From a virus: a stretch of DNA of 64,000 nt. Where the stretch lies: the IMG/VR virus record IMGVR_UViG_3300026165_000001, positions 23,356-87,355 of that record; one strand, given 5' to 3'. The translations under genes were made by a program, and so were the position numbers. Positions 1,627-43,600 of the stretch are shown here, piece by piece. Position 1 is the stretch's first letter, and every line of letters starts with the position of its first letter. The notes below the pieces were generated by a model. That model made no database searches and was not told the origin of the DNA. It saw nothing but the letters and a program-made list of their open reading frames with translations.

Positions 1627-2978
1627 TGCAATATTTTTACGATGAACAAATAAGAAAATACCTCTTGCAATTTGTGCGAATTTTCGGAAATTTCACAGTT
1701 CAAAAAGGTTTTGATGCACAAGGAAATCCTGTTTACGAAACTGTGCCTGCGCGTTATGGTGACATGAGTAGACAAGTCGGTCATATTCTCAAAGAAAATA
1801 GCGAGAACAGTTTAAACACTGTTCCTTTCATTAGTTGCTATGTTAACAATCTTGAAATGAAACCAGATCTCCGTCGTTATCCTCAATTTGAAGAAACTCT
1901 ACAAGTAATAGAAAAAGAGTTTGATGAGGATAGCCATACCTATCTAGAAAACCCAGGCCAGAGCTATAATGTGACGCGTTACCAACCTGTGCCATATTTG
2001 CTTACCATGAACGTTGACATTTGGACCAGCAATACTGATCAAAAGCTTCAGCTTCTTGAACAAATTCTTGTCTTGTTCAATCCTGGAATCAACCTACACA
2101 CAAATCAAAACACACTGGATTGGACCAGTCTTGCATATTGTGAAATGACAAATACGACTTGGTCAAGTCGTAGTCTTCCAAGCGGAGCCGATACTGTTAT
2201 TGATGTCGCAACGCTAACATTTGAGATGCCTATCTTTATCAATCCTCCTGTCCGTGTTCAGCGTATGAATATCATCCATACTATCCTTACACAAATTCAT
2301 ACCCTAGACTTGGAAGACTTTGAAACTTGGACTGTGGACGCAATCACAGGAGATAATAGCAGCTTTGTGGTCACAACACTGGAAGATTATTGGATTCGTT
2401 TTGAAGATGGCAGCGCCTTGTTGTTACAACGCAATGGTGATGATCAAGGTGGTTTAGGCACAGTTCTAAATTGGGAGAAGGATGTGTTCAGCAATTATGG
2501 TGAATTGCGTCCTGGCATAAGTCAGATTCGTTTACGTCAGGGTGACGACGTAACAGATCCCAGTAGCGATGTAATAGGAACGATTGATTTTGATCCAAAC
2601 AATAACCAAAGATTAATAGTAAATATTGATGCAGACACTCTTCCTAACAACACACAAGGAACGGTTGACGCTATTATCAATCCACAAAATACAGGCCCGG
2701 GTGATGGCAACTTGCCCAGTGCAGTTCTTGGACAGAGATATCTTGTGCTTGACGAAGTTCCAAGTGGTGGAATTTGGGGGACCATTACAGCGGGCAAAAA
2801 CGATATTATTGAATTTAATGGTGGTTCATGGGTCGTCAGTTTTGACTCAAGTGCTAATGGTGGCACAGAATATGTAACTAATACTGCTACCGGAGATCAA
2901 TTTGAGTGGACTGGTGAGTTTTGGCAGAACAGTTATGAAGGCACTTACCGAGAAGGTTGGTGGCGTCTTTACATATAA
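1626..2978 (+). CDS. 15: Tail completion and sheath stabiliser protein gp15
   Basis: Product of 450 residues. The N-terminal 210 or so residues match the gp15 pattern: an opening YFYDEQIRKYLLQFVRIFGN, then the segment around QSYNVTRYQPVPYLLTMNV, and the EMPIFINPPV end. gp15 caps the finished tail and binds the neck. T4 gp15 has about 272 residues, so the last 200 or so residues here are extra. The final stretch (YVTNTATGDQFEWTGEFW near the end) looks like a beta-rich module found in other phage structural proteins. It starts at a TAATG overlap with gp14. A late-type promoter overlaps its stop codon. Confidence 0.8.
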   Translation: MQYFYDEQIRKYLLQFVRIFGNFTVQKGFDAQGNPVYETVPARYGDMSRQVGHILKENSENSLNTVPFISCYVNNLEMKPDLRRYPQFEETLQVIEKEFDEDSHTYLENPGQSYNVTRYQPVPYLLTMNVDIWTSNTDQKLQLLEQILVLFNPGINLHTNQNTLDWTSLAYCEMTNTTWSSRSLPSGADTVIDVATLTFEMPIFINPPVRVQRMNIIHTILTQIHTLDLEDFETWTVDAITGDNSSFVVTTLEDYWIRFEDGSALLLQRNGDDQGGLGTVLNWEKDVFSNYGELRPGISQIRLRQGDDVTDPSSDVIGTIDFDPNNNQRLIVNIDADTLPNNTQGTVDAIINPQNTGPGDGNLPSAVLGQRYLVLDEVPSGGIWGTITAGKNDIIEFNGGSWVVSFDSSANGGTEYVTNTATGDQFEWTGEFWQNSYEGTYREGWWRLYI

Positions 2979-2981
2979 ATA
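2974..2981 (+). promoter_or_regulatory. Perfect T4 late promoter TATAAATA overlapping the gp15 stop
   Basis: TATAAATA matches the T4 late consensus exactly and includes the gp15 stop codon (2976-2978). T4 spacing puts transcript position +1 six bases after the box, at 2987. That is the A of the Nudix ATG, so the predicted mRNA is leaderless. Confidence 0.65.
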
Positions 2982-2986
2982 GACAC

Positions 2987-3430
2987 ATGACAATCAGAGC
3001 AAGCGGATGTATTCTACTAAGCGAGAATACAAAAAGGATTTTGCTTCAGCTACGAAAACCAGACCGCAAAAACAAAAATTATTGGGGATTTTGGGGAGGC
3101 ACACAAGAAGGCCAAGAACTTCCTGTGCAAACAATTGAGCGTGAATTGGAAGAAGAGCTTGGATTTTTGCCTGACATTACTAAATTTATTCCAATACATA
3201 AAATGGTGAGTAATGACGAATCATTTGAGTATGACACATTCCTCGCCACTGTTCCTCAAGAATTTACACCCAACATAAATGGCGAAAGCGAAGGCTACGC
3301 CTGGGTTAACTACGACCGTTATCCAGTTCCGTTACACCCAGGCGCTAAAATAGTTCTTCAAAATCCTCGTATAATAAGTAAGATCAAAACTGTGGTCGAT
3401 CAGCTTGTCACTGCCCAGGACATCAGATAA
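2987..3430 (+). CDS. Nudix hydrolase
   Basis: Product of 147 residues. It carries a complete Nudix box, GX5EX7REUXEEXGU, at residues 38-60 (G38, E44, R52-E53, E56-E57, G59), so it should hydrolyse a nucleoside-diphosphate-linked substrate with Mg2+. The substrate cannot be read from the sequence. Candidates known for phage Nudix enzymes include nucleotide sugars, capped nucleotides and NAD-like molecules. The ATG at 2987 is chosen because it follows the gp15 stop; the in-frame upstream start at 2957 lies inside gp15. No Shine-Dalgarno precedes it. It converges with the fibre gene at 3436 with only five bases between stops. An enzyme gene among late structural genes is unusual. Confidence 0.9.
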   Translation: MTIRASGCILLSENTKRILLQLRKPDRKNKNYWGFWGGTQEGQELPVQTIERELEEELGFLPDITKFIPIHKMVSNDESFEYDTFLATVPQEFTPNINGESEGYAWVNYDRYPVPLHPGAKIVLQNPRIISKIKTVVDQLVTAQDIR

Positions 3431-3435
3431 TACAT

Positions 3436-4515
3436 TTATGCTAGATCGCCTTTGATATTAACAACGTTATTGTCAATAAACTTAATCGTTACAACGCCAT
3501 ATTGACCTGCTGATTGAGTTAAGCCTCCAAGACTTAAAATAGTAACAGCTTCTGCTAGAGAAGTAAAATTTAATGCACCCGATCCTGATTGTTCGATATA
3601 AAATTCATCTCCAACTGAAAATGTGTTTGATGGAATTTCTACATCAAAAGGCAATCCACCTGAGTTATTAAGTCGTATGTATGTGCCTGCGTCAATTCCT
3701 GCAAGATTGAAAAGGAAATCAGCGGTTACATCTAGAACAGTTGGAAAACCTCCTCCTCCTCCACCACCACTTTCTATAGCAATATTCGCTTGTCCAGATC
3801 CAGCATCTGTAACCGTAACACTAGAACCTGTGAAGTTCAATGTTGATGCTGTTCCTACGATGCTCACACCATCATCTTCTACAGCAAAAGATCCACCTCC
3901 ACCCGAGGAATCAATAGTAATTGTTCCAGCACCATCATCATATGTAAGTGTGATATTTGATCCAGCAACAAGAAGATCATTTACTCGATCGTCTACTCGT
4001 TCATCTGTGTAATATAGATTGCTACCCTCAGATATTTGTGCGGTGGTTGATGGTCCATTGATTGTTAGTAGGTTAGAACCATCATCGTAACTTAATCCAA
4101 TATTTGTTCCACCAGCTAACATTGCAGCAACACGGTCGTCTACTCTTTCGTCTGTAAAATAAAGATTACTACCTTCTGCTAAATCTCCGGTATCATTACC
4201 ACTTAAATCAACATTACCATCATTTATTTGCTCCCAAACAGCGGTAACATTTGTGTTGTCCAAACAGACATATATTGCATCATTTGTTTCATCAATCCAA
4301 AAATCACCAACAGCAAATTTACCATTACCACCACTACCGTCAACATCATCGTTAACAGTGGGCGCGGCAGTTTTGCCTGTAATTTTGAATGGAACACTGT
4401 CTGATATATTATCAAAATGTGTGCGTAAATCCTCAGCGGTAATTCCGCCTGTTGCGTTCGTTGCGAACAATGTATCTGTTAATGTTCTAAAGGTGCTGTT
4501 TGAAACTTGTGCCAT
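3436..4515 (-). CDS. Modular fibre protein with shared N- and C-terminal domains
   Basis: Product of 359 residues. The first 95 or so residues (MAQVSNSTFRTLTDTLFATN through the [18 protein letters not shown] segment) are a paralogue of the N-termini of the plus-strand proteins at 47494, 51422 and 53268, and are likely a common attachment domain. Two SEGSNLYYTDERVDDRV-type repeats follow, then a Gly-rich linker and a C-terminal beta domain ending GVVTIKFIDNNVVNIKGD, which also has relatives in the plus-strand fibres. Function as a virion fibre or adhesin is inferred from this repeat type. It is the last gene of the minus-strand fibre unit and is separated from 4590 by 74 bases. Confidence 0.7.
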   Translation of the reverse strand: MAQVSNSTFRTLTDTLFATNATGGITAEDLRTHFDNISDSVPFKITGKTAAPTVNDDVDGSGGNGKFAVGDFWIDETNDAIYVCLDNTNVTAVWEQINDGNVDLSGNDTGDLAEGSNLYFTDERVDDRVAAMLAGGTNIGLSYDDGSNLLTINGPSTTAQISEGSNLYYTDERVDDRVNDLLVAGSNITLTYDDGAGTITIDSSGGGGSFAVEDDGVSIVGTASTLNFTGSSVTVTDAGSGQANIAIESGGGGGGGFPTVLDVTADFLFNLAGIDAGTYIRLNNSGGLPFDVEIPSNTFSVGDEFYIEQSGSGALNFTSLAEAVTILSLGGLTQSAGQYGVVTIKFIDNNVVNIKGDLA

Positions 4516-4589: not shown

Positions 4590-5174
4590 TCAATACTCTT
4601 TAATTCCGTATAAAAATCCTCGTCCAGTCATAACACTAGCTGGCATCTGGAATCTTAGATTTGTTATATCACTAGTAGTAAAGCGCATTCCGCCAAACTG
4701 ACAAAGCACTGGTCGATCACCGTTAGCAACTGTTGAGTGATAACTTCCAGCACCCACAAATCCCGTATAGGCTCCAGCCTCATTGGCATTAAAAATCAAC
4801 ATCTCTAGTCTGAGACCATCCCTTGCACCATCATTACCAATTCCTTCACCTGAAGCATTGAAGATTAAACGATTATCAACCTCAGTATATAAACTGTTTC
4901 CAGCGCCATCTCTGCTTTGGGCAATAGTTGAGTAATCACCACTCGTGCTGTCCCATGAGACTCCGTTATCTGTTGATGTTTCCATTTCAAAAACACCATC
5001 ATTTGATGCAAATACAGTATTCACGAAACGGACAACATAAACCGGATATGATCCATCTAGATTAAAGATCACACTGGTCGCAGAAAAGTTTTGTGCATCT
5101 AGTCGTATCTCAGCCGGACGATAGATTCCCTTTCCGCGGTATCGTAATTCATTAGTTCTTAGTGTTCCACTCAT
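4590..5174 (-). CDS. Small tail-fibre adhesin-like protein (paralogue A)
   Basis: Product of 194 residues, beta-rich. It has the layout of a receptor-binding fibre-tip domain seen in many phage and prophage tail fibres: a central TSTDNGVSWDSTSGDYS segment and a final MTGRGFLYGIKEY strand. No enzyme motif is visible. It overlaps its upstream neighbour by 4 bases (ATGA), so the two are probably translationally coupled. Two similar-sized proteins (5171 and 5860) precede it, which suggests tandem duplication followed by divergence. The role in host recognition is inferred. Confidence 0.6.
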   Translation of the reverse strand: MSGTLRTNELRYRGKGIYRPAEIRLDAQNFSATSVIFNLDGSYPVYVVRFVNTVFASNDGVFEMETSTDNGVSWDSTSGDYSTIAQSRDGAGNSLYTEVDNRLIFNASGEGIGNDGARDGLRLEMLIFNANEAGAYTGFVGAGSYHSTVANGDRPVLCQFGGMRFTTSDITNLRFQMPASVMTGRGFLYGIKEY

Positions 5175-5860
5175 AGGCTTTGTCCTACTCTTCCCATGTT
5201 GTTTGTTGGTTTTTGTCTCACATATAGCACAGCTCTACCTGTAATAGTCTCGTCGTTCTCTGTCATAAATGCAAATCCCACAGCGGGATTTGCAAGGGCT
5301 ACATGACTACCTCCACCACTTGGCATGACAAATACATTATCACTCCCATTAAGTTGAACTCCCATTGATGAGAATGCGAAAAATTTTCCTAGGGCCACAT
5401 AAATTTCACCACTCCATCCACCTGCTGTATCCTCATCTCGAATATCAGCCGGGTGTAGCATGGCATCGTTCTGTCCACTTCCTCCAGGGGTATCAACATC
5501 AGGGGTTCCATCAGCTTGGAGTTCGATATAACTCCAGCTCTTATTTCCATCATTAAGTATAGGGGCAAGTCGGTGACCATTAGTTCCTCTTGACAGTGGA
5601 ACCAGTTGGAATCTCCTCGCATCAACCGTTGTGTGTAGGTTAAGACAAAGTATTCTGAATTCGAATAGATTTAAGTCTTCTTCATTTGGAGTGAATCCAA
5701 ATGTCCGTTCGATTACATCAATACCATCCCACCCAGGCATTCTGGGATCACCAACAGTGCTACCAGGAAGGGACCCAAAGTCAATACTATCCACATAGGA
5801 CCAGTCCCGGTATATGCTTTCGCCGTTGCCGTCAAGAAGATCGTCAATGGTAGTTGTCAT
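5171..5860 (-). CDS. Small tail-fibre adhesin-like protein (paralogue B)
   Basis: Product of 229 residues. It belongs by size, position and general beta-rich layout with the proteins at 4590 and 5860, but it is the most diverged. Its C-terminus ends ...RQKPTNNMGRVGQSL rather than the LYG(I/R) strand of the other two. It has a central segment SWSYIELQADGTPDV and a Gly/Asp-rich loop. No enzyme motif was recognised. It overlaps 5860 by one base and 4590 by four bases. Virion adhesin is an inference from context. Confidence 0.5.
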   Translation of the reverse strand: MTTTIDDLLDGNGESIYRDWSYVDSIDFGSLPGSTVGDPRMPGWDGIDVIERTFGFTPNEEDLNLFEFRILCLNLHTTVDARRFQLVPLSRGTNGHRLAPILNDGNKSWSYIELQADGTPDVDTPGGSGQNDAMLHPADIRDEDTAGGWSGEIYVALGKFFAFSSMGVQLNGSDNVFVMPSGGGSHVALANPAVGFAFMTENDETITGRAVLYVRQKPTNNMGRVGQSL

Positions 5861-6426
5861 TAATAGTTCCTTCCATAAAGAGACATGCCTATCGAGGTTA
5901 AATCACCGCCGGGCTCATGTAAAGATACGAATGTGATCTTGGTTGAGGGATTGTAGGCGCCAGTGGCTCGGAACCTATTTGAATACAAGGCGCCACTAAA
6001 CTCAAAGTGAGTTGGTGCCGCTGCATATGGATCGAAGATGAGCGTTCTCAAGGTTTCATCACCTGAGGTGTTGCTAGATATGCTGTTTTTAATACTGTCT
6101 CCCCCAGTTGAATTAGTCCCAAAAAAAGCGCCTGTGTTATTTACACCATATGAAATATAAGAGTAATCATTTGTGGTAATCCATGTAGGGGTGCTACCAG
6201 TGTTTGTTGCTACACGGAATTCTATATCGGTCCCGAATCCTCCACTGATGGCAAAAATTTCCATCTCAAGATAATCATAGTCACCATCATATGGTTGGAT
6301 GTCAAATCCAAGATAATCAGTATTCAATTCCCCTTCACTTCCCCGGAAGAAGCTGTCAAGTAGCACTCTCTCATTCATATTGTTTCCGTCCAGATCTTGA
6401 AGTGATCCAATTTGTAATGTGCTCAT
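5860..6426 (-). CDS. Small tail-fibre adhesin-like protein (paralogue C)
   Basis: Product of 188 residues. It begins MSTLQIGSLQDLDGNNM and ends LTSIGMSLYGRNY, the latter resembling the last strand of the fibre-tip domain in the 4590 product. The middle contains the DYSYISYGVNNTGAFF segment. A strong Shine-Dalgarno (AGGAGG) lies 5 bases before the ATG, consistent with high late expression. It lies directly downstream of the 1026-residue fibre gene, nine bases after its stop, so it may be its tip or an interchangeable adhesin. Confidence 0.55.
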   Translation of the reverse strand: MSTLQIGSLQDLDGNNMNERVLLDSFFRGSEGELNTDYLGFDIQPYDGDYDYLEMEIFAISGGFGTDIEFRVATNTGSTPTWITTNDYSYISYGVNNTGAFFGTNSTGGDSIKNSISSNTSGDETLRTLIFDPYAAAPTHFEFSGALYSNRFRATGAYNPSTKITFVSLHEPGGDLTSIGMSLYGRNY

Positions 6427-6435
6427 ATGTCCTCC

Positions 6436-9400
6436 TTAAACAATGGATAAATTTCCATTTACAGTAATGGTAGTTCCAGTAGCAATTTCAAGTGGTCCTG
6501 CTGCGCTGGCATTCTCGTTGGCATCTATGGTTACATCTGTATTGAGGACTTGCTCATTGACACGGAAGATATCTCCTGGTGCTGATCCAACTTCACCATT
6601 CTCGCCTTTGAAAAGACCGGCGCCGCCTCCGCCGCCAAGTGCGGCCCAAGAACTATTTGAATATCCTTCAAACTCATTATTTGTTGAGTTATAACGGATA
6701 TATCCATCAGCACCAGTTGGTCTTTGTGCATCTGTTCCTACAGGCAACCGGATGGCATCAGTTGCGCTGATATCAAGACTAACAGCGGGTGCACCAGTTC
6801 CAATACCAATCAAACCATCAGATTTGACAACCAATCTATTATTAGCGCCATCTGTTTGAAACTGTATATCAGCAGCATCAATGGTTCTCATTATTAGTGA
6901 GTCTGTTCCTCTATGAAACAGGCTTGTATTGCCTTCGCTGGCTCTTAGAATTCTAAATCCATAATCTGTGTAGGTAGTTCCTCCAACAAGATCGATAAAT
7001 GCATTGCCGTCGCCTGTTCTACCTTCACCGATCTGGATAAAGTGTGGTGCTGTTCCTGTGCTTCTAGTGAGATTGATGTTGTCAGCGAATGTCTTGTTGC
7101 CGCCAATTGTTTGATTGCTTGTTAAATCTACATAATCAGCTGGGTCGAATGCCTTAACTGCTGCTAGGTTGGTTACCTCACTGTCCATTAATGCTCCAGC
7201 CGCTGTAACATTGGCAGTGTCAGTTACATCAGCCAGTGCCTCTATGCCATCTAGCTTGGTGCCATCAGATGCGAGGTCTCTGCCATCAACTGTTCCACTT
7301 ACTGTGATATTGCCTGTAATATCAAGTGCGGCTCCATTGTAGGTAAGTCCGGTTGTGCCTTCAATAGTGCCATCACCAGTCCATACGCCAACTTGGTTGT
7401 CAACTGGTGTGCCTACTTTGTTTACATCCCCTCCTCCAGCAATGCTAGCCCATGTTCCATCTCCTCTCCAGTATGTTGAAGAACTCGCTCCTGTTCCACC
7501 GTTGAGGTTTGATACTGGAAGATTTCCAGTTACTTGACTTGCAAGATCAATGTTGGCATCGTTAGTGTATGTGCCAGCACCTGTCCTGCGCATAAATCCA
7601 TTTGTAGAAAAGTCACTATCCATAACAGCGCCTGCGGCTGCCACATTAACAGTATCAGTTACATCTGCTAGTGCTTCAATGCCTGCTAGCTTTGAGATGT
7701 CGCCTGCGGTTGTAAACTTATTTGTGGTAGAAGTGTCATCTAAATCATCTGGGTCCAATACCACAGCACCCGTCAATCCGTTGACACTGTCAACATCTCC
7801 GCCGGCATCAATAGTCAATGTTCCAGCCACATCGTTATATGTAAGTGTTACATTTGAGCCCGCTGTGAGTAGGCTATCAACTCTATCGTCTACTCGTTCA
7901 TCTGTATAGTAGAGATTTGTTCCTTCACTTAGATCGTCTGTATCCTTGGTCCCTAGTCTTGTATCAAAGTCTGTATTGAAAGTGTTGTAGTATGCGGGCT
8001 CTGCCCAACTTCCATCTGCTCTCAAAAAGTTGGTTGTACCTCCACCTGAGCTAGGGACAATACCACTGTTACTAATGTTGAATGTGCGCAGTAGATCAGT
8101 TGCCGCAGGGCCTGTGAGTGCTTCAATATCGCCTGTGCCACTACTGTCACGACCAAGTATGCGATTGGTAGCAATGTGCTGCATCTTGGCAAAAGTAATA
8201 GCTTGATCTGGAACGGCCACTGTGAGTGTTCCTGCCACATCATTATATGTTAAGTTAATGGCATCGCCTTCAACGAGAAGTGCTGCAACTCTATCGTCTA
8301 CTCGTTCATCTGTGTAGTAGAGATTTGTTCCTTCACTTAGATCTGTTGTAGAATTGCCACTCAAGTCTTGAAGTGCTGTGTCTGCCAAATCGCCCTGTGC
8401 TGCTGTGGCATAGTCAGCCGGATCAAATGCCTTAACTGCTGCTAGGTTGGTTACCTCACTATCCATGAGTGCCCCTGCTGATGTAACATTAGCAGTATCA
8501 GTTACATCAGCGCCAGTTTCAATACCTGCTAGTTTTGTTTGTTCGCTATCTGTAAAGGCATTTGTATTAACATTATTTTCATAAGCAGTCTTGATCTCAG
8601 CATCTGTTTGGTCTGCTGTCGCACCAGTTTCAATACCTGCTAGTTTTGAGATGTCACCTGCCGTTGTAAACTTGTTGGTTGTTGAGGTGTCATCTAGATC
8701 ATCTGGGTCCAATACCACAACACCTGTTTGTCCATTTACACTATCAACTGGAGCCGTTCCGCCTGCCGCATCAATAGTCAGTGTTCCTGACACATCATCA
8801 TATGTGAGGGTAATGTTTGTTCCACCAACCAGTAGACTGTCAACTCTATCGTCTACTCGTTCATTGGTGAAGTAAAGGTTTGTTCCCTCACTTAGATCGG
8901 TAGTTGAACTACCTGAAAGATCCTGTAGTGCTGTGTCTGCCAAATCGCCCTGTGCGGCAGTAGCATAGTCAGCCGGATCAAATGCCTTGACATCAGCTAG
9001 ATTTGTTACTTCGCTGTCCATTAGGGCACCTGCTGATGTAACATTGGCAGTATCAGTCACATCTGCTAGTGCTTCCACTCCTGCTAGTTTTGTTTGTTCA
9101 GCATCAGTAAAGGCATTGGTATCAGCATTATTTTCATAAGCAGTCTTTATCTCTGCATCTGTTTGATCGGCAGTTGCGCCTGCTTCCACTCCTGCTAGCT
9201 TTGAGATGTCGCTTGCGGTTGTAAACTTGTTGGTTGTTGAGGTGTCATCTAGATCATCTGGATCCAATACCACAACACCTGTTTGTCCATTTACACTGTC
9301 AACGTCTCCGCCACTTCCTCCCCCGATCGCGCCCCAGCCTGAGTTATATCCTTCAAACTGACCAAGGTCAGAATTGAAACGTATCATACCATCAACACCA

Positions 9401-12072: not shown

Positions 12073-12708
12073 TTATTTTCTCCCTAGGTCTTGGATAATT
12101 CGAATCATCTCTTCTTTGAGATACTTCTGTGCTCTTGGATCGTGCTGAACATTAGTTGCTACGTCCCAAATGCTATTAGCACGACGGTGATTCATGATGT
12201 GTTCATAAATCGGATCCGGATATGCTTCTGGTGCACTTGGATTCGCCACGATATCTACCGTAACAATTTCAAACTCTGACACACTGCCTGAGCCATCAAC
12301 GTTACCACTGCCGCGTGAGCTGACCCCTAGTTTTACACCACTTTCCAGTAGTGTTTTACATATGTTGCCCATTGGAGTGGGCAACATTTTTAGTTTACCA
12401 ACACCGTCTGATCCACGCATGTCCATATCGACAATCATGTGGCTTACACGGTCAAGGTTGATGTTCAGATCGTCTGGATGATCTGCTTCACCAAGGACTG
12501 TATAACCACCAGCAATCTTCTCTTTGAGCGACTTAACGGCGCTTGTGATTTCATTAACTGGGTATACTCTTTGATTCTGATTTCGCTTATCACCTTGGAT
12601 GAAGATACCCTGCATATACAGGTCCTTGCCACCTTGGCCATTATCATGGCTTTCAGTAGTAATAGACGCTGCATCAGGCGTAATAACTTCTCTAAGAGGT
12701 GTAAACAT
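12073..12708 (-). CDS. 21: Prohead maturation protease gp21
   Basis: Product of 211 residues, close to T4 gp21 (212). It matches the T4 prohead protease family (serine protease, MEROPS S77 type). GEADHP gives the catalytic His (H77), and the GVSSRGSG segment gives the catalytic Ser (S130 or S131). The DIVANPSAPEA motif closes the domain. It cleaves the scaffold and the N-terminus of gp23 during head maturation. It lies 2 bases upstream of gp22 in the same operon. Confidence 0.92.
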   Translation of the reverse strand: MFTPLREVITPDAASITTESHDNGQGGKDLYMQGIFIQGDKRNQNQRVYPVNEITSAVKSLKEKIAGGYTVLGEADHPDDLNINLDRVSHMIVDMDMRGSDGVGKLKMLPTPMGNICKTLLESGVKLGVSSRGSGNVDGSGSVSEFEIVTVDIVANPSAPEAYPDPIYEHIMNHRRANSIWDVATNVQHDPRAQKYLKEEMIRIIQDLGRK

Positions 12709-18057: not shown

Positions 18058-18891
18058 ATGAGTGAAAATCCACTACAGAAACTATATAGAAACAAGAAAG
18101 TCTATGTTTCATTGCCCAGCGGTGGCAGATTTTATAACTCTGGTGTAAAACTCAGTGCAGACAATGAAATCGGCGTTATGCCCATGACTGCCACTGACGA
18201 AATCAAACTCAAAACTCCTGATGCTCTGTTCAACGGCGAAGCCCTATACGAACTATTCAAGAGCTGTGTGCCAGATATCGAAAATCCACGTGAAATACCA
18301 GTGTGTGATATCGACAAATTATTGCTTGCAATTCGCATGGCAACCAGTGGTTCAACATTGGAGATAAAATCCACTTGCCCTAAATGCAAACACATAGAAA
18401 AATATGATGTTGACCTAGGCGTAATCATGAACAGTGCACAAGAAATCACTGAAGACAACGCTGTAACATTGGATGACGACATCATTGTTGAAACCCGTCC
18501 ACTCACACTACAAAGTCAAATCATGGCACAAATGGATTCATTTTATCAATACCGTATGCAGCAAATGATCAATGACGATAGTGTGCCAGACGAACAAAAG
18601 GCTAAAGAGTTTAATGAAATACTAGTCCAAGCCATCACACTTCAAACAGGACAAGTTGCCAGTTGTATTACAAAGGTGACATTGGACGAAGACACTCAAG
18701 TAACCGATAGTGAACACATTTTTGAGTGGGTAGAAAACATGGATAGTCATACTCATAGAAAAATTAAAGATTGTATTGAAAAATTGAGCGATCCAAAAAT
18801 GAGTGATAGTGTTACCATCAAATGCAGTCAAGAAGAATGTGGTCATGAATACAAAGCAAACATTGACCTAAATCCAGTAAATTTTTTCTAG
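18058..18891 (+). CDS. 26: gp26-family baseplate hub/tail assembly protein
   Basis: Product of 277 residues resembling the T4 gp26 baseplate family. The N-terminus contains YVSLPSGGRFY, and two metal-type Cys pairs are present: C107-x2-C110 (CPKC) and C256-x4-C261. These could form one zinc site bridging both ends of the domain. T4 gp26 (208 residues) is needed for hub assembly. The gene ends in a T-run just before the stop (18882-18888), a canonical -1 slippery heptamer, and the -1 frame stays open into the next ORF. It diverges from the tape-measure candidate with 71 bases between start codons. Confidence 0.75.
   Translation: MSENPLQKLYRNKKVYVSLPSGGRFYNSGVKLSADNEIGVMPMTATDEIKLKTPDALFNGEALYELFKSCVPDIENPREIPVCDIDKLLLAIRMATSGSTLEIKSTCPKCKHIEKYDVDLGVIMNSAQEITEDNAVTLDDDIIVETRPLTLQSQIMAQMDSFYQYRMQQMINDDSVPDEQKAKEFNEILVQAITLQTGQVASCITKVTLDEDTQVTDSEHIFEWVENMDSHTHRKIKDCIEKLSDPKMSDSVTIKCSQEECGHEYKANIDLNPVNFF
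18882..18888 (+). promoter_or_regulatory. Candidate -1 frameshift site, T TTT TTC, before a UAG stop
   Basis: In the gp26 frame the last codons are TTT TTC TAG, preceded by T, which is the X XXY YYZ heptamer T TTT TTC. An overlapping A AAT TTT also fits. Slipping back one base reads Leu-Ala-Thr-Ala-Ile-His and then joins the next ORF at its ATG, with no stop between. The fusion would have 354 residues. Confidence 0.55.
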
Positions 18892-19121: not shown

Positions 19122-19316
19122 TCAACTCAGACGGTTGTCAACCGTATATTTCCATCCACTCCACTCTATTATAGTGATGCTTCGCATCACTAGCTGATTC
19201 GCATATCTCATCTCCATTCGCTTCGCTCATTTCGATTCGATCTGCTTTCAGCATTTCTTATCGTGTTTTACTATGTCGAATTGTCATTCCATTTTGATTT
19301 GAATGTTTTGAATCTA
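19122..19316. other. Non-coding spacer with small hairpins
   Basis: No gene is supported. It holds ACGGTT/AACCGT (19130-19144) just after the upstream stop and a perfect AGTGATGC/GCATCACT hairpin (19172-19190). A pyrimidine-rich stretch with TTCG-containing repeats follows. No convincing promoter could be placed. It precedes the structured RNA candidate. Confidence 0.5.
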
Positions 19317-19699
19317 TTAGGCATTTCCCAGAACCAATAGCCACACTTTGCCCGATGAGGCAAAGTGTGGCTATGGCAGACGTTTCCCGTCACCAACCCA
19401 GCAAGCTGGGCCACTCCGTTCCAAAACAACCTTGTATAGCCAGGGAAGGGCGGTTGAGCGATACCCTTTTATGTTTAGCTTTTCAACGCGGGACCACATC
19501 ATGCTGTTAACGGCTTACACGATGCTGCCTGTGGGTTCCAAGCGTGTGAGGAGAGCCCACTCATTTCTCAGGTGTCAATCTGAGTGCGTATATGACTGCG
19601 ACATGCCAGATCTGTTGCCGAAAATTTGTTTACGGCTCCTCAAGGCATTCATTGAGGTCGCTATGGTCAGGGTTCTGAGGTTGGTCCTAATAAGCCTAT
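19317..19699. ncRNA. Large structured RNA candidate, about 380 nt, strand unresolved
   Basis: The ends pair with each other: TAGGC (19318-19322) with GCCTA (19694-19698), and CAGAACC (19329-19335) with GGTTCTG (19671-19677). Inside are a 16-base-pair perfect hairpin (19337-19352 with 19359-19374, loop CGATGA), an 8-base-pair stem (19531-19538 with 19553-19560), CCTCAA/TTGAGG (19638-19643 with 19652-19657) and CCCA/TGGG (19397-19410). The region lies between convergent gene ends. An open frame at 19348-19704 has no Shine-Dalgarno and an unconvincing Cys/Arg-rich translation, so I treat it as non-coding. It recalls large ornate phage RNAs such as GOLLD and ROOL, but no match is claimed. Confidence 0.6.
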
Positions 19700-19700
19700 A

Positions 19701-20210
19701 TTAGTTGTGAGCACTTTCAAAGGCAGCTCTATTGAGTTCAAAGAAACTATCAAATTCTGTTAGTTTCCAAACAACTCCTTCCTGGTCCGTGTAGACAACG
19801 TGTCTGTTGGTTTTGAATGGCAACGTAGCATCAAATCCAACAAACTTACCTACACGGGTAATTTTCATAAAAAGAATATTAATGTCATCATCGTCCGCAG
19901 CATCTTTGATTTGCTGCAACCAATCTTCGAGAATAGGGATCGGCTCGTTGAATAGTAATCTATGGAACGGAAAACTTGCGTAGTTTTTACATTCACAGTT
20001 AAATCGATTCCAATGATCAGGCGGAACAATGTCGCCCTTCATGTGACGTATCTGCCCATCACTCATGAGAATTTTACGGTCGGCATTGCTGCCACCTGTA
20101 TAAGCCCCACTGTTGGGGACGCGCATGAATGGCGCGCCATAAGTCTCTGTCAAGTATTTGGCGACATCACGTTCCCACGCGCCGCCCTTGGCTTTGCTTT
20201 TACTGGTCAA
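19701..20210 (-). CDS. PD-(D/E)XK nuclease, resolvase-like
   Basis: Product of 169 residues. The opening KGGAWERDVAKYLTETYG resembles the first helix of Hjc/RecB-type nucleases, with E13 as a possible catalytic residue. The core D60...E73-x-K75 (MKGDIVPP and NCECKNY) is the PD-(D/E)XK metal site. Such enzymes cut branched or damaged DNA; a Holliday-junction or packaging-repair role is plausible because gp46 and gp47 lie in the same operon. The substrate is not proven. It overlaps the upstream gene by four bases and ends the minus-strand operon beside the structured RNA region. Confidence 0.7.
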   Translation of the reverse strand: MTSKSKAKGGAWERDVAKYLTETYGAPFMRVPNSGAYTGGSNADRKILMSDGQIRHMKGDIVPPDHWNRFNCECKNYASFPFHRLLFNEPIPILEDWLQQIKDAADDDDINILFMKITRVGKFVGFDATLPFKTNRHVVYTDQEGVVWKLTEFDSFFELNRAAFESAHN

Positions 20211-34669: not shown

Positions 34670-34678
34670 GGTAAATTG

Positions 34679-37600
34679 ATGGCAAAAGATTATAGCGCCA
34701 ACCCAAAAGACGTAAAAAACTTCACACAAGGGGCTGAAGTTGGACTGGATCAAAGCTTTCAGGACTATAGTGAGTTTCTGCCCTTTATCAATAGAACAGA
34801 ATCACTTGAGCGTTTCTTTGGCAGCACTGTCAATCAACTTCTAAGTTCTGGATCAACTCAGAGTATTGACGCATACTGGGGTCGGCTTGCAGGAAGAAAC
34901 TATAACCCAAATAACGAACTCTTTCAGTTTGAGCCTGATGCCACACGTCTTAACTATCAATTCCAGCCTGGCACAGTGAGCCGTGTTGAAGGCCAAACTG
35001 AACAAACTGTTAGTTACATCAATTGGCTCAAGCGTCTCGAAAGTCTTGGTGCTGATATTAATAACCATGATCGACTTTTCAGTGAGCTGGGATATGTGCT
35101 AGACTTGCCAATTAATGCAGATATGTTGATGAATTATCGCAATTATTATTGGTTAGAAGGACAAATACCAACAATTGTAATTGAACCCACAGTTGACGAT
35201 CCAATTGTCATTGATGATATCGTTAAGTTTTCATTCTATACAACTCCAGAATTGTCAAACTACAAGACTGTTGAGTTTGTGACTGGTTTGCGTGTTAAAT
35301 TCACAGGCGATTATGTTTCAAGTACGAGCGGAGATTATTTTGCTGATTATACATATTCAGTTGAAAATGTGGGCGGTGAAGGAGGAATTAAACTTGTGCC
35401 AGTTATTGATGATACTGGTGACAATCTATTCCCGAGCACCACTCCTTATGAGATAGAAATCCGCGAAGGCTGGGATATATTTGATTATGATACAACACCA
35501 TTCGATGGCATCGCGCCATTCGATCCATACGACGTCACAACTAATCGTGATCGTGAAGATCTAAATCTTAACACTACATATATTGTAATGGAACGTTGGG
35601 CAGCCGATAAAAATCCTTGGGCCAGAACAAACAAGTGGTATAGCCTACATGCAATTGACATCATGGCAGAGTATAATGGCGTTAATGTTGAGGCATATAA
35701 AAACGCCTTTACCCGCGCCAATAGACCAATTATTGAATTCCGTGCAAACATGGAGCTCACAAACTTTTGTGGTAATTTTGCTGGCACAGTTGATTACGCA
35801 GTAAGCATCGACCAAGCAAGCCAAATTGGAGACTCAGGCGGATCTTTCCAAGTCGATAGTGAAAACTCATTGGAAGATGGCGATGTTATTTTTGTTGGTA
35901 AACCAGAAACAAATGGTATCCAGCTTGTTGAATTTAATCAAGACTTCAACAGTGACTTCGACAGCGGCCCAGCACTGAGCGGCGCGTTTGGTCCTCCATA
36001 TAGCAGCGCATTTGACGTTGGTGTGGCAATTACATTGAATCAAAACGCATACCAAGTCAGTATTGTTAGTAATACAATTACATTGACGCCACTTTCACCA
36101 TATAATGACGGCGATTATGTGATTGTCACTAAGGGAGAACAAAAAGGATTTGTCTATTGCTTTACAGAGGCTGATGGTTGGCAAGTCGCACAAAATAAAG
36201 AATCACGAGGTGATTTCCCGCTATTCAAGCTATATGATGACGAACTAATTGATCTTGAAAGTTACGAAAATACAGACTTTGTTGGTGAAAAGATCTTTGG
36301 ATATCGAGAAAATCCAACAGGCGGATTTGATCGTGAACTAGGATTTAGTCCATCATTTACGCAGCAAGGATCATTTAACGATTATGAATTTGAATGGACA
36401 CTTAGCACAAACCGTTATAGTCGTGATGTAACAGTGGACAATTCAACTGAAATTCGTGGATACTATTTCTGGCGAGATCGAGTTGAAAACAAATATTATA
36501 ATGGATGGACACAAGTCCGTGGTGGACAGCGTGTTCCTATTATCCAAACACAAGTCGCCGACGGAACAAACCAGCCTACATTTGAACTAGGAACAACAGC
36601 AGTCAGTCATCCCACTGAATACACTGTGGTTTTCCAGGACGATGAATATCGTTGGCACGAACACAGTTATATTGATCGTCATCCTATCGGTGAACCAAAT
36701 CCAACAATGGTTTGGCGCTATGATACTGATTACAATATCAATACGTTGATTGAAAACTCTAGCGATTCCTTGGAGTTTGTGCGAGCAATTTCTTATGCTT
36801 CAGATACTGTTTCCAGTATTACTTTAGCTAGTGCAACACCGGTTGAGATCACAGTTGCAGATACATCACAGCTAAAGACTGGTGACCGTGCCACATTTAC
36901 AAATGTAACAGGAACAACCGAACTCAATGGGAATACTTATGAAATCACAGTTGTTAACTCAACTACATTTACACTAGATGGAACAGATGGTGATGATTTC
37001 AGTGCTTATGTAAGTGATGGCGACATTACATATGGTGATGGAGATATCACTGTTACTGTAACAGATGATCTAAACACAACTGTAAATGTATCCAGCAGCT
37101 ATGTATATGGAAAGATATTGTATCGCAATACTAATGATTCAACCATTCAGGGAGAGATTTTCCTTTCTGATGAAAATCAAAATAGATACTCTGTAATTCG
37201 CAATGGTCGTTATCTCGTAGAAGATGTTGATTACGCATTTAGTGGCACAACAATTACCGTGACTGCGGAATGCAGTGAGGACGATGTTCTTGAACTAATT
37301 TATATTGCTGATGCAGATCTAGAAAATGTTGTTTATGATGTGGCTCCTATTCACTTCTACAATAACGATAACAAACCATTCACGTTTGTGGGTTATGACG
37401 ATCTAACAAATCACTTTGCACGACAAATGTCTGCAATGCCAGGATTTGATGGTGATGTATTTGGCATTAACAACTACCATAACACGGTGCGACAGCATTC
37501 ATATGACGGCTTGATTAGACAGCAAATCTTCTCAAGCAAGCGTGTGCAATATCTAATAGATCAAGAGTCTATTAATCCAGTTCGTGCACTCAAAAATATT

Positions 37601-40600
37601 TCACGTGATTATGCTGATTTCAAGAAATACTTTATTAATAAAGTTCGACAATTGTGGAATACAAATGAATGGTCAACTGTTAGAGAATTGGTTGACCGAG
37701 CAATTTCTGACATCAATATTGGAAAAAGCGACGAATTCAAATATGCACATAGTGACATGGCATATGCTAAACAATTCAGAAGCATTGAACACACAATAAC
37801 AAATAGCGATACTGAATATGCTATGCCCAGTGTGGTTAACGTTTATAATGATCGACAAAACCATATACAAGTCTGGCTAAAGGAATATGATTCAGTGACA
37901 AGCCAGTTCATTGAACGTCCGTTGGTCAAGGATATTGATTATACAATTAACGGTCCAAATATTGTTTTGACCAGCCCGGCTGAATTTAGTGGTAATGTTG
38001 TAAACAGTTCAGATAATGTTGTAAACAGTTCAGACAATGTCATTGTTGGTGAACCAACCGGTGGACCAGCAACTCTTACCATACGTTGGTATAGTGTAAA
38101 TCAACTGAGTCATATTCCGCCAAGTGCAGTCAAACTAGGATTCTTCCGTCCAACACAAATTGAATTTACAGATGGTGTATTGATTGGACATGACGGAAGT
38201 CGTTATACTGCAACAAACACAGATATCACCAACACAAAAAGTGTTGACTTTGATGTTGTCGCGGCTGCACTATACGATTATGAGTTGCGAGTATTCAATA
38301 ACTTGGTTGATGGACACTTCCTAAGCGATACACAATACAATTATGAAATGGGGGAATTTTATCCAAACCCTGATGGCGAGTTTGCTTATGATGTATCAGA
38401 TATCAATGATCGACTCGATGACTGGTATAACCGTTGGGCTATCCGCAACAGCGTAACTGAAATTGACACGGTTGCTTATGATGCTGGTGATGAATTTACT
38501 TGGAATTACAGCACGGTTGGTCCTGAACTGGGTAGCTGGCGCAGCATATACACTTATTACTTTGGAACAGATCGCCCACACACACATCCTTGGGAGATGC
38601 TCGGACACCGCATCAAGCCTACATGGTGGGATGCAACTTATAGTTGGACGGCGGGACCTTTGCGTGATGCATTGATTTCAGCCTTGAAGTTCGGCAAAAC
38701 AGGAGACACAAGCGGTCCTGATAAGATTGATTTGCGTTATGCTCGTAGCAGCTATGATTGGGACGATGAAACCCTGGTCAGTGATGATGGTTCAGCAACC
38801 TTAAATGGTCCTGACACCGCAGGCGTTGTTAGCACACCAGCGAGTATTGATGCTGCACGTGATTTTGTTTTTGGTGATTGGAGTGAAACAGAGGATAGAT
38901 GGCGTAAGAGTAGTGAATATCTTTTTGCGCTTGCTGAAGTCTATTTGCAACTCAAGCCATACAGGACACACGAGCTATTTTGGTTCCTACATCGTTACAA
39001 TATTAATCGCAACGTAACACAAGAACAGTGGGTCAATATTGATTATTGTATTCGTGCATATAATCAAGAATTGCACAACCAAAAAGTCAAAGACGGTGTT
39101 ATCGCTAGTATACGTGTCGTTAATGGCGGAACAGGATATACATTCCTTGATCTTGAATTTGAACAAGGACCCATTTGTTATCGTATTGCTGAAGCACAAG
39201 CCTATACATCTGCAGGACGTGTGGTGGCTGTAGCAGTTACAGATCCAGGACGAGGCTTTGCTAGTGATCCAGTGGTCAATTTGAATGGTCCTCCAAGCGG
39301 TTCCGGTGTTGAGTTAGAGTATGTTATTATTTCTGATCTATACTTCACACACCTAGGATTCAACACTCTTCCAGCAGAAGAATATGTAGTGGTAAATCCA
39401 GACTCAACAGACCTAGCTGAACGACTTGATGGCCTTGATATCAATTACATGCTACATGTTGGAGGATTTACTGACAAGCGCATACTTGCTATTGAGTTGG
39501 ATGGTGATTATGATAGTGGTGTTGTTCGTATTCCAGAAACAAGCTACGACATTCTAATTGATCGCAATGCTCCAATCAAAACAGCATTTTATTCAGGTGT
39601 TCGAATCGATAAAGAGGACGTTGGTTACCGCGTGAGTGGTTACGATCTTGATAGTGAATTCTTCAATTATCTTCTGCCATCAACAGCAGGCAAACAGATA
39701 AGTGTTGATATTGGAAATACTGAGGTTGTGAAACATCTCAACTGGAGAAACGAGGTAGCACGAATTCCTTACAATACAGTGCTCCTCAAGCGCCAAGAAC
39801 TGTATCAGTTCTTGCTGGGACTTGGCAAATACTATGAAAGCATTGGTTTTGATGCATATACACAATGGGAAGTGGAAGCCAGAGCAGCGATTGAATGGGC
39901 ATTGGGAACCGACACTGATCCTTTCTATGTGAATGGTATTAATGATACAATCAGTTATCATCAAGGAACACGTGGCGTTGTGCAAACAATCGACGTCAAT
40001 TACGATGGTGTGCCCAACTTGCTTGATCAAAATTTTAAGAATATTCGACGCAATGAAACACTTGTTTTGAGAGATAATGATAAAACTGAAATCTCAATCA
40101 AGAACGGCGAAGATAGAATTTATGGTCTAGGTGTTCGTGTTATTGAATTTGAACACATCATTACCATTGATAATGTTACATCATTCAATGACGAATTTTA
40201 TATTCCTGAGTTGGGTGTTGGTCAAAACCGTGTCCGCCTAGTAGGCGAAAGAACAAGAAATTGGAACGGTCGTGTTGAGGCGGTTGGATACCTTGTGCAA
40301 GATACAGGACTTGTTCTCAATATAGAAAGCAGCGTTCGTGAGCTTGAACAGGACTGGATGACATCTGACAGTAAAGCACTTGAGCGTTTGACACGTCAAA
40401 CTCGTGGATACAATGTTGGATATTCAAAACCAACATACATGACCAATACTTTTGTTAGCGACCGTTCAGGTTATGCGTTTGAAAAGGGTTTGAGAAAATA
40501 CCGCGGCACTGCTAGCGCAATCGAAGCCATGACCAGGAACAAGAACATTTTTGGTCAAGAATTTGAGCATGAACTATATGAAAACTGGATGGTAAGACTG

Positions 40601-43600
40601 GGAGATTTTGGTGACGTTAGTGAACGCAACCCGATTGAATTCCAAGTTGATCAAAACAAAATCAAAGATGACCCACAGCATTTCCGTTTTTCAGAGAGTT
40701 TTGTTAGTGATAAATCCAGTGACTTGATAATTGATATCAGCAAAGGATCAACTGATGCAATAAATGGTGATTATTCATCACCATTTGGAGTTTATGATGT
40801 ATTGCCACTAGATAATAGCAGCATTGAAAATCTTAAAGATTACCAGACATTTCTGCGTGATGCTGGATTGCCTGTTGTTCAAGAAATAGATTATTTCCTA
40901 GACTCTATTGACAATATTGGAGATATCTATGACCCAACACAACCATATGCGTTGATTCCAAATTGGAGTGAGACATCATCATATGTTGAAGGTGATTTGG
41001 TCCGCCGCTTCGGTAAAGTATACAGCTTGCTTGTTGAATCAACAGGTTTAACAACACTCAATGATGACATCATTGTTCGTGGTAACCAAGTATTCCCGCT
41101 TGTGCCAAATGGATCAACATTTATTGCGAACGGAGAAACTGTCACATTCAACAAGGCAGACGAAAGTGTATCATTTGATACAATCACAGTTGATGGCACA
41201 CAAACCAATCCAAGCATTCCGTCAGGAACAACTCTTGTTATTGATGGTATCAATGTTGACTTTGTTAAAAACGCTACCACAACAACCTATAGTGATATTG
41301 TTTTGGAAGGAAATGTAACGTCTCCAACAATACAGAACAGCGCATCACGTGAGTTGAGAATTGGTTACGCCAACAGTGCGACGGCACCTCTAACATACAT
41401 CACAGTAGCCTTCGACGAGCTTGAAGACACGCTTACCATGCAAACCATTCTCATTGATGCATTTACAGAAGCCGGACTTGCTGATCCTATTGGTGCAAGT
41501 GTAACCTACCTAACCACTCTCGAGGCTCTGCGTAGTGCGTATGTTGCCGCAGAAAGCGTTGCGTCATGGGAAACCATCATTGATAACTTTTATGATGCTA
41601 CAGGAACACCTGATCGTTTCTTGAACCCTGAATACTGGCCAACAGTGCTAGGATTTACTGGGGCAAGTTGGGAAACAGAGGCACGTGATATGATTCAAGT
41701 CGACCTTGATCTAATTGATGAGTTGGGCGGCAGCACTGCGGCAACTGTGGCAACAATTGTTGATGGCACTGCGGTGATTGATACTGAGCGTGATGCAGCA
41801 AACAACCTTCTTGATTTTGGTGTTACCCCAAATGATGAAAACGAAAACCTAGCAGATTTCACACTCTACTTGGAAAATAACGGAGGTGTAACAATTGCTA
41901 CAGGTCAGGAAATCACTGTTACCAACCCCAAGAACTATGTTGAAGATAACCTTGTGGCAATTGCAAATAAGATTTCAACAGCACTTACAGCCGCGCCAAG
42001 TGGTATTAATGTGTCAACAGCAGGTAACCGTATTACACTAAGCCGAACTGGAAACCAAGCTGGTTATCGGTTTGGAGTTACTACAGATGTAGCTCTTGGA
42101 TTTACTGATGCTGATAATGACGTTCAGACTTCAGGAACAACCACCAGTGGTCCTGTTCCTCTAACATTAAATGAAGCCGTCCAGACAGTTAACCAGTTCA
42201 GTATTACCGGAGTCACAGCGCAAAATGTCAGTGACCGTATGCGCCTATTAAGCACAAACGAAGAATTAACGATTGGATCAGGAACAGCAAACGGTGTCCT
42301 AGGATTTACACCAGGATCAACGCCTGCTACATCAAATACAACCAATGTTCCAGTGGATCTATCCATTGGCGATGTTGTAAGTCAAATCAATCAAGCAGAA
42401 ATTGATGATTTAACTGCCAGCCAGGTCGAAGGTGCGCTGGTTCTACGTTATACAGGTGAAACATTGATAATTGGCGATGGAACAGCCAACGATGAACTAG
42501 GCCTTGCAGCGCAAACATATGAATCATTGTCAGACGCAGTTCAAAACATTTTTGATCCGGCAGATTGGGCAGTCATAGCTGACCCAGCACACTTTAATAT
42601 CTGGACAATTGATAATATTGGCAGTGATCCTCTTGGACCAAGCGGAACAAATCGTTATGATGTTTACCAAACACTAGACTTCCAAATTGGAGTTCTAGAG
42701 ATTTGTGCCGGCGAAGAAAATGGCGACGATGCTTACATCAAGTGTGATACACCACATACATTGTCAGCTGGTGAGTTTGTGATGATTGTCAACTCAACCA
42801 CTGTGCCAAGTGTTGATGGTATTCATGTTGTTACGGGTATTCAAGACGATCAAGGCTTCTACATCGACCGTTATATCGAACAAAAAGGATTTACAGGAAA
42901 AGTATTCCCAATACGCTCAGTTCGGTTCCCAGACTCTTTTGTTGCCGCCGCGGCAATGACTGATGAAAATTATGTCCAGGGTAGCCTAGGACTACGTGTT
43001 GGTGATTACATTTATGCTGATACTCGTTTGGATATCAATAGCAATAGCTTAGGTTATGGCGCTGTATATGATGTAAAAAGAACTACTGAGGGCGCAGGGT
43101 TGCGTTTTGTTCGTAGAGAAGTAGGAAAAACCAATAACAGTGAAATCAAAAACGGAATCTTGTATAGTAATACAACTGGCGAAACTGTGATTCGTTATGA
43201 AGTATTCGATCCTCTAAAAGGAATCATTCCTGGTATTGCTGAAGCTGAAATTGATTTGCGTAGCGATGTTGATTTTGCATATTACAATAACAGCACTGAT
43301 CCAAATGTTGAAGTTAGAACTGACAATGTCTGGGGACAGCGTCAAATAGGAACAGTTTGGTGGGATTTGAGCAATGCAATTTATCTCAACTATGATCAAA
43401 TCAATCCGGAATATCGCCAGGAGTTCTGGGGACAGCTATTCCCATCAGGCACAATTGATGTTTATGAATGGACTAAGAGTCCTGTAACTCCAGATGAATA
43501 TGCCGATGCAGTGAATGCAGGAACAGTGATTGATGGCACTGAATTGACAGGATTGCCATATTCCTTTGTGGATCAATTTGGTGAAGAACAATATAGTTGG

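Follow-up and report, generated by a model that had tools for sequence, protein, structure and literature searches.

What lies between two converging phage genes when the gap is too long to be a simple junction: spacer, protein gene, or RNA? The question is raised by 579 bases (19122-19700) of the window, i.e. the whole 64,000-nucleotide stretch of DNA analysed here, which is part of an 87,355-base IMG/VR virus record. The record carries T4-type portal, capsid, gp46/gp47-like and late-sigma genes, and its source is an uncultured T4-like virus of bacteria. The gap is flanked by the converging ends of a gene for a resolvase-like nuclease and, on its plus-strand side, a 71-amino-acid open reading frame that is itself downstream of a baseplate hub gene (Table 1). 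An initial annotation, made from the sequence alone, had proposed that the gap holds no credible gene and that positions 19317-19699 encode a large folded RNA, not spacer DNA; both proposals hold up. The candidate protein gene, a 118-amino-acid open reading frame at 19348-19704, has no protein family match and is excluded because its reading frame is broken in all 10 aligned relatives by 5-13 indels each of a length that is not a multiple of three. The possibility that relatives conserve this protein, which the annotation had itself raised against an RNA, is thus not borne out.

The case for an RNA comes from comparison with other viruses. A search of viral contigs for the nuclease gave 80 loci, several of which carry DNA homologous to the gap by BLASTN (69-74% identity); a degenerate pattern derived from the most conserved stretch gave 83 further stretches, and an iterated nucleotide profile collected 157 viral-contig loci at E <1e-8, several of them overlapping on one contig, with 61 distinct sequences at <93% identity. 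When these 61 sequences were subjected to a mutual-information test with APC correction, the seven strongest column pairs proved 84-100% complementary, and the top pairs define hairpins H4, H5, H7 and H8, a long-range helix, P9, and two pseudoknots, PK1 and PK2. In a 52-sequence alignment, 83.7% of the paired cells are complementary (66.8% after shuffling), 494 cells show changes on both sides of a pair (181 after shuffling), and the covariation score is 0.495 (0.215 after shuffling); none of 500 shuffles reaches any of the observed values, and sliding the alignment by 1-3 columns lowers the score to 0.183 or less. The same holds for the window's own clade, where 11 full-length sequences, pseudoknots included, are 91.1% paired, as against 81.1% when shuffled and at most 43.8% when slid, with both-sided change at 43 pairs of the minus-strand structure. 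In other words, many related viruses keep the shape while letting the letters change, which marks this as a working RNA. We conclude that 19317-19699 encodes a large folded RNA and is neither spacer nor protein; the covariation evidence is overwhelming, and about a dozen helices are supported, including the two pseudoknots, which go beyond the helices of the initial annotation.

On which strand is the RNA encoded? The annotation had left this unresolved, helices being symmetrical. Both strands fold more stably than shuffled controls (z -3.98 for minus, -2.42 for plus; none of 100 shuffles is as stable), and it is the wobble pairs that decide: read on the minus strand, the alignment contains 169 G-U cells and 73 A-C cells, and the RNA strand is therefore the minus strand of the window. 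The RNA is predicted to start (AUAGGCU) near 19699, where the nuclease gene has its stop codon, and to end near 19317. The nuclease gene is thus upstream on the same strand as the RNA, and it is the RNA's neighbour across the family.

Table 1. Features of the RNA locus, in window coordinates
Feature	Position	Strand	Evidence or remarks
T4-type baseplate hub protein gene	18058-18891	+	PF12322 73.9 bits, phrog_150; conserved position
PDDEXK_15 nuclease gene (resolvase-like)	19701-20210	-	PF24608 86.5 bits, phrog_244
Whole noncoding RNA, ~380 nt	19317-19699	-	homology/alignment, covariation, excess of G-U over A-C
Outer closing helix, CAGAACC (19677-19671)/GGUUCUG (19335-19329)	19329-19677	-	79% paired, no both-sided change in 11 relatives; weakly supported
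5' domain (P1, P2, P2a)	19598-19661	-	both-sided changes in all three helices
P1	19661-19657/19602-19598	-	both-sided changes
P2	19648-19644/19607-19603	-	both-sided changes
P2a	19636-19630/19623-19617	-	both-sided changes
Hairpin H3	19568-19583	-	conserved UGACA in loop; 4/4 pairs with both-sided changes
Hairpin H4 (GUGGG/CCCAC, then UCC/GGA)	19531-19560	-	99% paired; conserved GCUCU inside
Hairpin H5	19491-19529	-	loop holds 5' strand of PK1; covariation in both alignments
PK1, H5 loop CCGUU (19513-19509)/AACGG (19420-19416)	19416-19513	-	covariation in both alignments
PK2, CGUUG (19488-19484)/CAACCG (19456-19451) in H7 loop	19451-19488	-	95.8% paired
Long-range helix P9, AAA (19476-19474)/UUU (19426-19424)	19424-19476	-	4/4 alignment pairs both-sided
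Hairpin H7 (AAGGG/CCCUU)	19446-19468	-	95% paired; 5/5 pairs with both-sided changes
Hairpin H8 (CCU/AGG)	19430-19444	-	supported in both covariation runs
Hairpin H9 (CCCAGC/GCTGGG)	19397-19410	-	92.7% paired; 4/5 pairs both-sided in close relatives
Direct repeat R3, GGGAAA before terminal hairpin	19383-19388	-	permutation test, 0/5000
Terminal hairpin H10 (19373-19359/19352-19338)	19338-19373	-	95.8% paired; 5/15 pairs with both-sided changes
Direct repeat R4, same GGGAAA after terminal hairpin	19324-19329	-	permutation test, 0/5000

The strongest evidence is internal to the RNA (H4, H5, H7, H9, P9, PK1 and PK2). For example, all four Watson-Crick pair types occur at an inner pair of H4 (73/91). 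PK1, which joins the H5 loop to a strand 3' of H8, is re-paired in nearly every sequence, its complement averaging 7.2 base pairs within an RNA and 4.7 across phages (52 sequences). PK2 is the most conserved stretch, with the family form CGUUR pairing to YAACCG in the H7 loop (conserved as UAUCGCUCAACCG); even here the last pair varies, with A-U in place of G-C in 13 sequences and G-U in 4 more, and highly conserved unpaired core nucleotides adjoin it. P9 encloses H7 and H8. All the pairings that the initial annotation had listed are present in the window, i.e. CAGAACC/GGTTCTG, TAGGC/GCCTA, the perfect hairpin (H10) and an 8-base-pair stem (counting G-U). Compensatory change, which it had looked to as support, occurs in H9 and H10 and is absent from the outer closure; the end-to-end closure that it took, together with internal helices, as the sign of a folded RNA is in fact the weakest part of the structure, and TAGGC/GCCTA, at the RNA ends, is by eye missing from several relatives.

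Between the RNA and the convergent gene (19132-19192), the window also carries two perfect inverted repeats, ACGGTTG/CAACCGT and AGTGATGC-TTC-GCATCACT, the second of which reads GCGAAGC on the minus strand. Similar GCGAAGC hairpins stand 3' of the RNA in close relatives.

Is this a known RNA? No Rfam family reaches its gathering score anywhere in the window, and in the gap there are seven chance-level matches at E up to 10; ARAGORN and Rfam searches of the window for tRNA, tmRNA, RNase P, group I/II intron and HEARO were empty. One orphan family turns out to be connected to it all the same. Polynucleobacter-1 (RF01718) is a candidate from Burkholderiales and fresh water described by Weinberg et al. 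in 2010, the one paper in which our literature search found it named (PMC2864571). In one viral contig (L140) an RF01718 match at 3927-4069 is followed by the core of our RNA at 4079-4309, and a pattern for the RF01718 motif found 15 genuine sites and one chance match in viral contigs. All 16 RF01718 matches (L140 and 15 more, 87.6-94.9 bits) run into the core, two of them being cut by contig ends; with the core, or its remnant at a contig end, directly 3' of every match, what the orphan family captures is one piece of a larger RNA of phages. The Rfam model spans only the 141-nucleotide 5' domain, and that of the window RNA is of another kind; the window RNA falls below the 37-bit threshold, with no match to RF01718 even at E 10, while by eye it shares the 5' start AUAGGCU. 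This relates the window RNA to the Polynucleobacter-1-containing RNA while placing it outside the Rfam family in its modelled form. The RF01718 5' domain marks a distant branch (L114, L140, L142, L183-L196).

The family is widely distributed. Nearly all carriers are T4-like myoviruses, and at nearly all loci gp47-gp46-(...)-PDDEXK nuclease precedes the RNA on its own strand, and the RNA converges with the baseplate hub gene. Of 16 large viral records searched with the R1 model, 15 (of up to 382 kb) carry the RNA, 14 of them as a single copy; the exception, a 317,722-base record (G004), has four paralogues, at 12263, 120336, 251824 and 315022 (L202-L205). Further copies lie between co-directional genes or as paralogues elsewhere, including, with genes named by eye, copies near a gene for a CCA-adding enzyme (L150, L169) or a TilS-like protein (L170). 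These tRNA-maturation genes are at 5225-6490 (L150), 2279-3702 (L169) and 4671-5276 (L170). R1 found no RNA in the available stretch at the nuclease loci L014, L020-L023, L025-L032, L051, L052, L056 and L057; some of the phages without a nearby RNA carry it elsewhere (G015), and others are fragments.

Among cultured phages the clear carrier is Agrobacterium phage Atu_ph07 (NC_042013), with two copies, both on the minus strand. The first (L223, 490287-490072; R1 24.4 bits, E 3e-4) occupies an unannotated gap; its H4 is re-paired, H5 and PK1 (8 base pairs) pair perfectly, and the terminal hairpin, a different one, is flanked on either side by the word AAAGATTA. The second (L228, 383536-383313) falls within 2.2 kb that hold no annotated gene; by eye, its terminal hairpin is fully re-paired and its PK1 has 7 base pairs, one of them G-U, and its word differs from that of copy 1 and is imperfectly matched. 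The gene that precedes copy 1 carries the annotation translation initiation factor. The Atu_ph07 genome paper does not mention noncoding or intergenic RNA (PMC6102473). With A. tumefaciens C58, this phage provides a cultured phage-host pair suited to tests of expression and function.

Other named phages gave less. DNA similarity searches with the window RNA and three homologues gave no usable match, and a 33-base match from them (H33) failed the profile. R1 was blank in T4, ICP1, P-SSM2, PAU, PTm1, RM378, SCTP-2, Phosso and LR756500 and in RaK2, XacN1, XbC2, 121Q, GAP32, BF and Vibrio 2.275.O. The RNA was never confirmed in a bacterial genome: 84,980 bacterial and archaeal species, scanned with a pattern that would miss the most distant branch, gave 8 matches, all chance, of one 22-36-base match each, and R1, run without a positive control on 369 genomes of the class of a gammaproteobacterial MAG, found none.

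The least explained part of the RNA is a pair of words around its terminal hairpin. These words, of 6-10 nucleotides, are identical on the two flanks and differ between phages (GGGAAA in the window; GGTAAA, GGAAAA, GGCAAGTT, AGATGAA, AGATAAT, AGTCAAG, GTCGGAA and others elsewhere). The longest exact word common to both flanks averages 6.95 nucleotides within an RNA. Permuting the flanks between RNAs lowers this to 5.37 (sd 0.13), and none of 5000 permutations, which ignore relatedness between RNAs, reaches the observed level; a control region gives no effect. Totals over sister pairs are biased, the RNAs having been preselected for sharing a word, and the examples alone are usable: between L100 and L115, whose cores are 96% identical, TGGTAAAG becomes GGCAAGTT in both copies. 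Within the 317,722-base record, the paralogues have different words (CGGAAAT, AGGTAAT), matched within each RNA except in a degenerate fourth copy, and the constraint is therefore per RNA and not that of one phage-wide binding protein of fixed specificity. We found no third partner, complementary or identical, coupled to the words in the RNA or its flanks; word complements within 6 kb number 30 (24.8 expected), with no coupled site, and as ribosome-binding sites the words show a slight excess only. A Neo-like endless frame of the repeat unit is ruled out, as its length modulo 3 is random and no open frame is kept.

What, then, might such an RNA do? At a probability of roughly 0.6, we favor a putative trans-acting structured noncoding RNA of ~380 nucleotides encoded by the phage, an RNP or RNA machine. 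On the minus strand, its sequence immediately follows the gp47-gp46-PDDEXK nuclease genes, and its fold of about a dozen helices and two pseudoknots is maintained across T4-like and jumbo-like phages. During infection it would be made as a separate transcript or be processed from the 3' end of the nuclease mRNA. The near-invariant knotted core (H4, H5, PK1, H7/PK2 and P9) may be a common machine that docks on a conserved partner, such as a phage protein or the host's machinery for translation or transcription; the tRNA-maturation and translation genes beside some copies possibly hint at translation. The variable part would be the 3' arm, where a strong hairpin is enclosed by the two identical words; these would be used as a pair, either as two equal contact sites or as one site handed between copies.

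Might the structure instead act in cis, as a 3'-UTR that terminates or protects the nuclease transcript, or helps to process it, and guards it against convergent late baseplate transcription? The RNA does begin at the nuclease stop codon, and it sits at a convergent junction in most members. Yet two pseudoknots and a near-invariant core far exceed the needs of a terminator, and the minus strand here yielded no terminator-like site. Copies also occur between co-directional genes and as paralogues elsewhere; the off-locus copies, the four paralogues of the 318-kb record and the two copies in Atu_ph07 speak against a cis element that serves a single gene, and we consider this explanation unlikely.

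A self-processing RNA or ribozyme, whose pseudoknotted core would cut its own or another RNA, is less probable again. Double-pseudoknot topology is common among ribozymes, and the conserved unpaired nucleotides beside PK2 would suit one, but there is neither an Rfam ribozyme match nor an obvious cleavage site.

Large structured phage RNAs are, to our knowledge, rare, and none has a settled function. GOLLD and ROOL are, like the window RNA, large pseudoknotted phage RNAs without known function (PMC12286853), and the initial annotation had compared the locus to them in size and phage setting while seeing no match. Rfam searches agree that neither family matches, by sequence or model. GOLLD and ROOL are often near tRNA genes and this RNA is not, there being none in the window (ARAGORN) or in 36 homologous loci. 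Phage setting, size class and many helices with pseudoknots would fit an RNA-only cage or oligomer of their type, but the present RNA is shorter, its helices are different, and coupled direct repeats such as its own have not been described for them, making a cage very improbable. Vibrio phage ICP1 has an abundant, highly expressed noncoding RNA of ~800 nucleotides in a gene-free gap, as here (PMC7567579), but its genome, unlike the family's carriers, has no R1 match. Least credible is a template for reverse transcription on the model of DRT10 or telomerase RNA, where a template B is enclosed by repeats A and A'. In principle this reading explains the matched and otherwise freely varying words best, since DRT10 noncoding RNAs require just such A/A' repeats (PMC12632851), but it lacks a reverse transcriptase partner (no PF00078 in 15 virus records, i.e. 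the window's record and 14 carrier phage records of up to 338 kb, several of them fragments), and its template would be a conserved, stable hairpin of 49-68 nucleotides, random in length modulo 3 and with no kept frame.

Returning to the trans-acting RNA, a bolder version of it would be an addressable phage RNA machine, in which a constant knotted core is combined with a rapidly changing word pair that gives each copy its specificity, the Polynucleobacter-1 fragment and multi-copy versions in enterobacterial jumbo phages being further forms. We offer this as a tentative idea; if true, it would be a new kind of phage RNA. The paired, co-changing words themselves lead to sharp predictions. Whatever its function, the family adds a large, widely distributed phage RNA with exceptionally strong covariation that is listed in almost no database, and it explains Polynucleobacter-1 as a truncated model.

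The jumbo-phage versions come from a weak R1 match in an intergenic gap of Pectobacterium phage CBB (NC_041878; 15.2 bits, E 0.07). DNA similar to CBB 94229-94889 occurs at 223 places in 58 phage records, several per genome, in phages that include GAP32, XbC2 and BF and with hosts that include E. coli and Salmonella. In these copies CGUUG pairs into a hairpin loop ending in CAACCCG just before the 3' arm, and the hairpin stem is changed on both sides between copies (GGAAG/CTTCC, CTGG/CCAG). They share this PK2-like arrangement with the RNA described here, whereas PK1 and the words are seen in the latter alone; no Rfam family, GOLLD and ROOL included, matches them. From sequence, homology is no more than possible, because other R1 matches of similar score were false: one of 14.7 bits in Pelagibacter phage HTVC008M and one of 15.9 bits in PA5oct fall inside annotated genes. 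The CBB-type copies are unannotated, conserved and intergenic, and the CBB copy has a terminator-like hairpin with a T run. Elsewhere in the window, an open reading frame of 3709 amino acids (34676-45805, plus strand) lies within the structural gene region.
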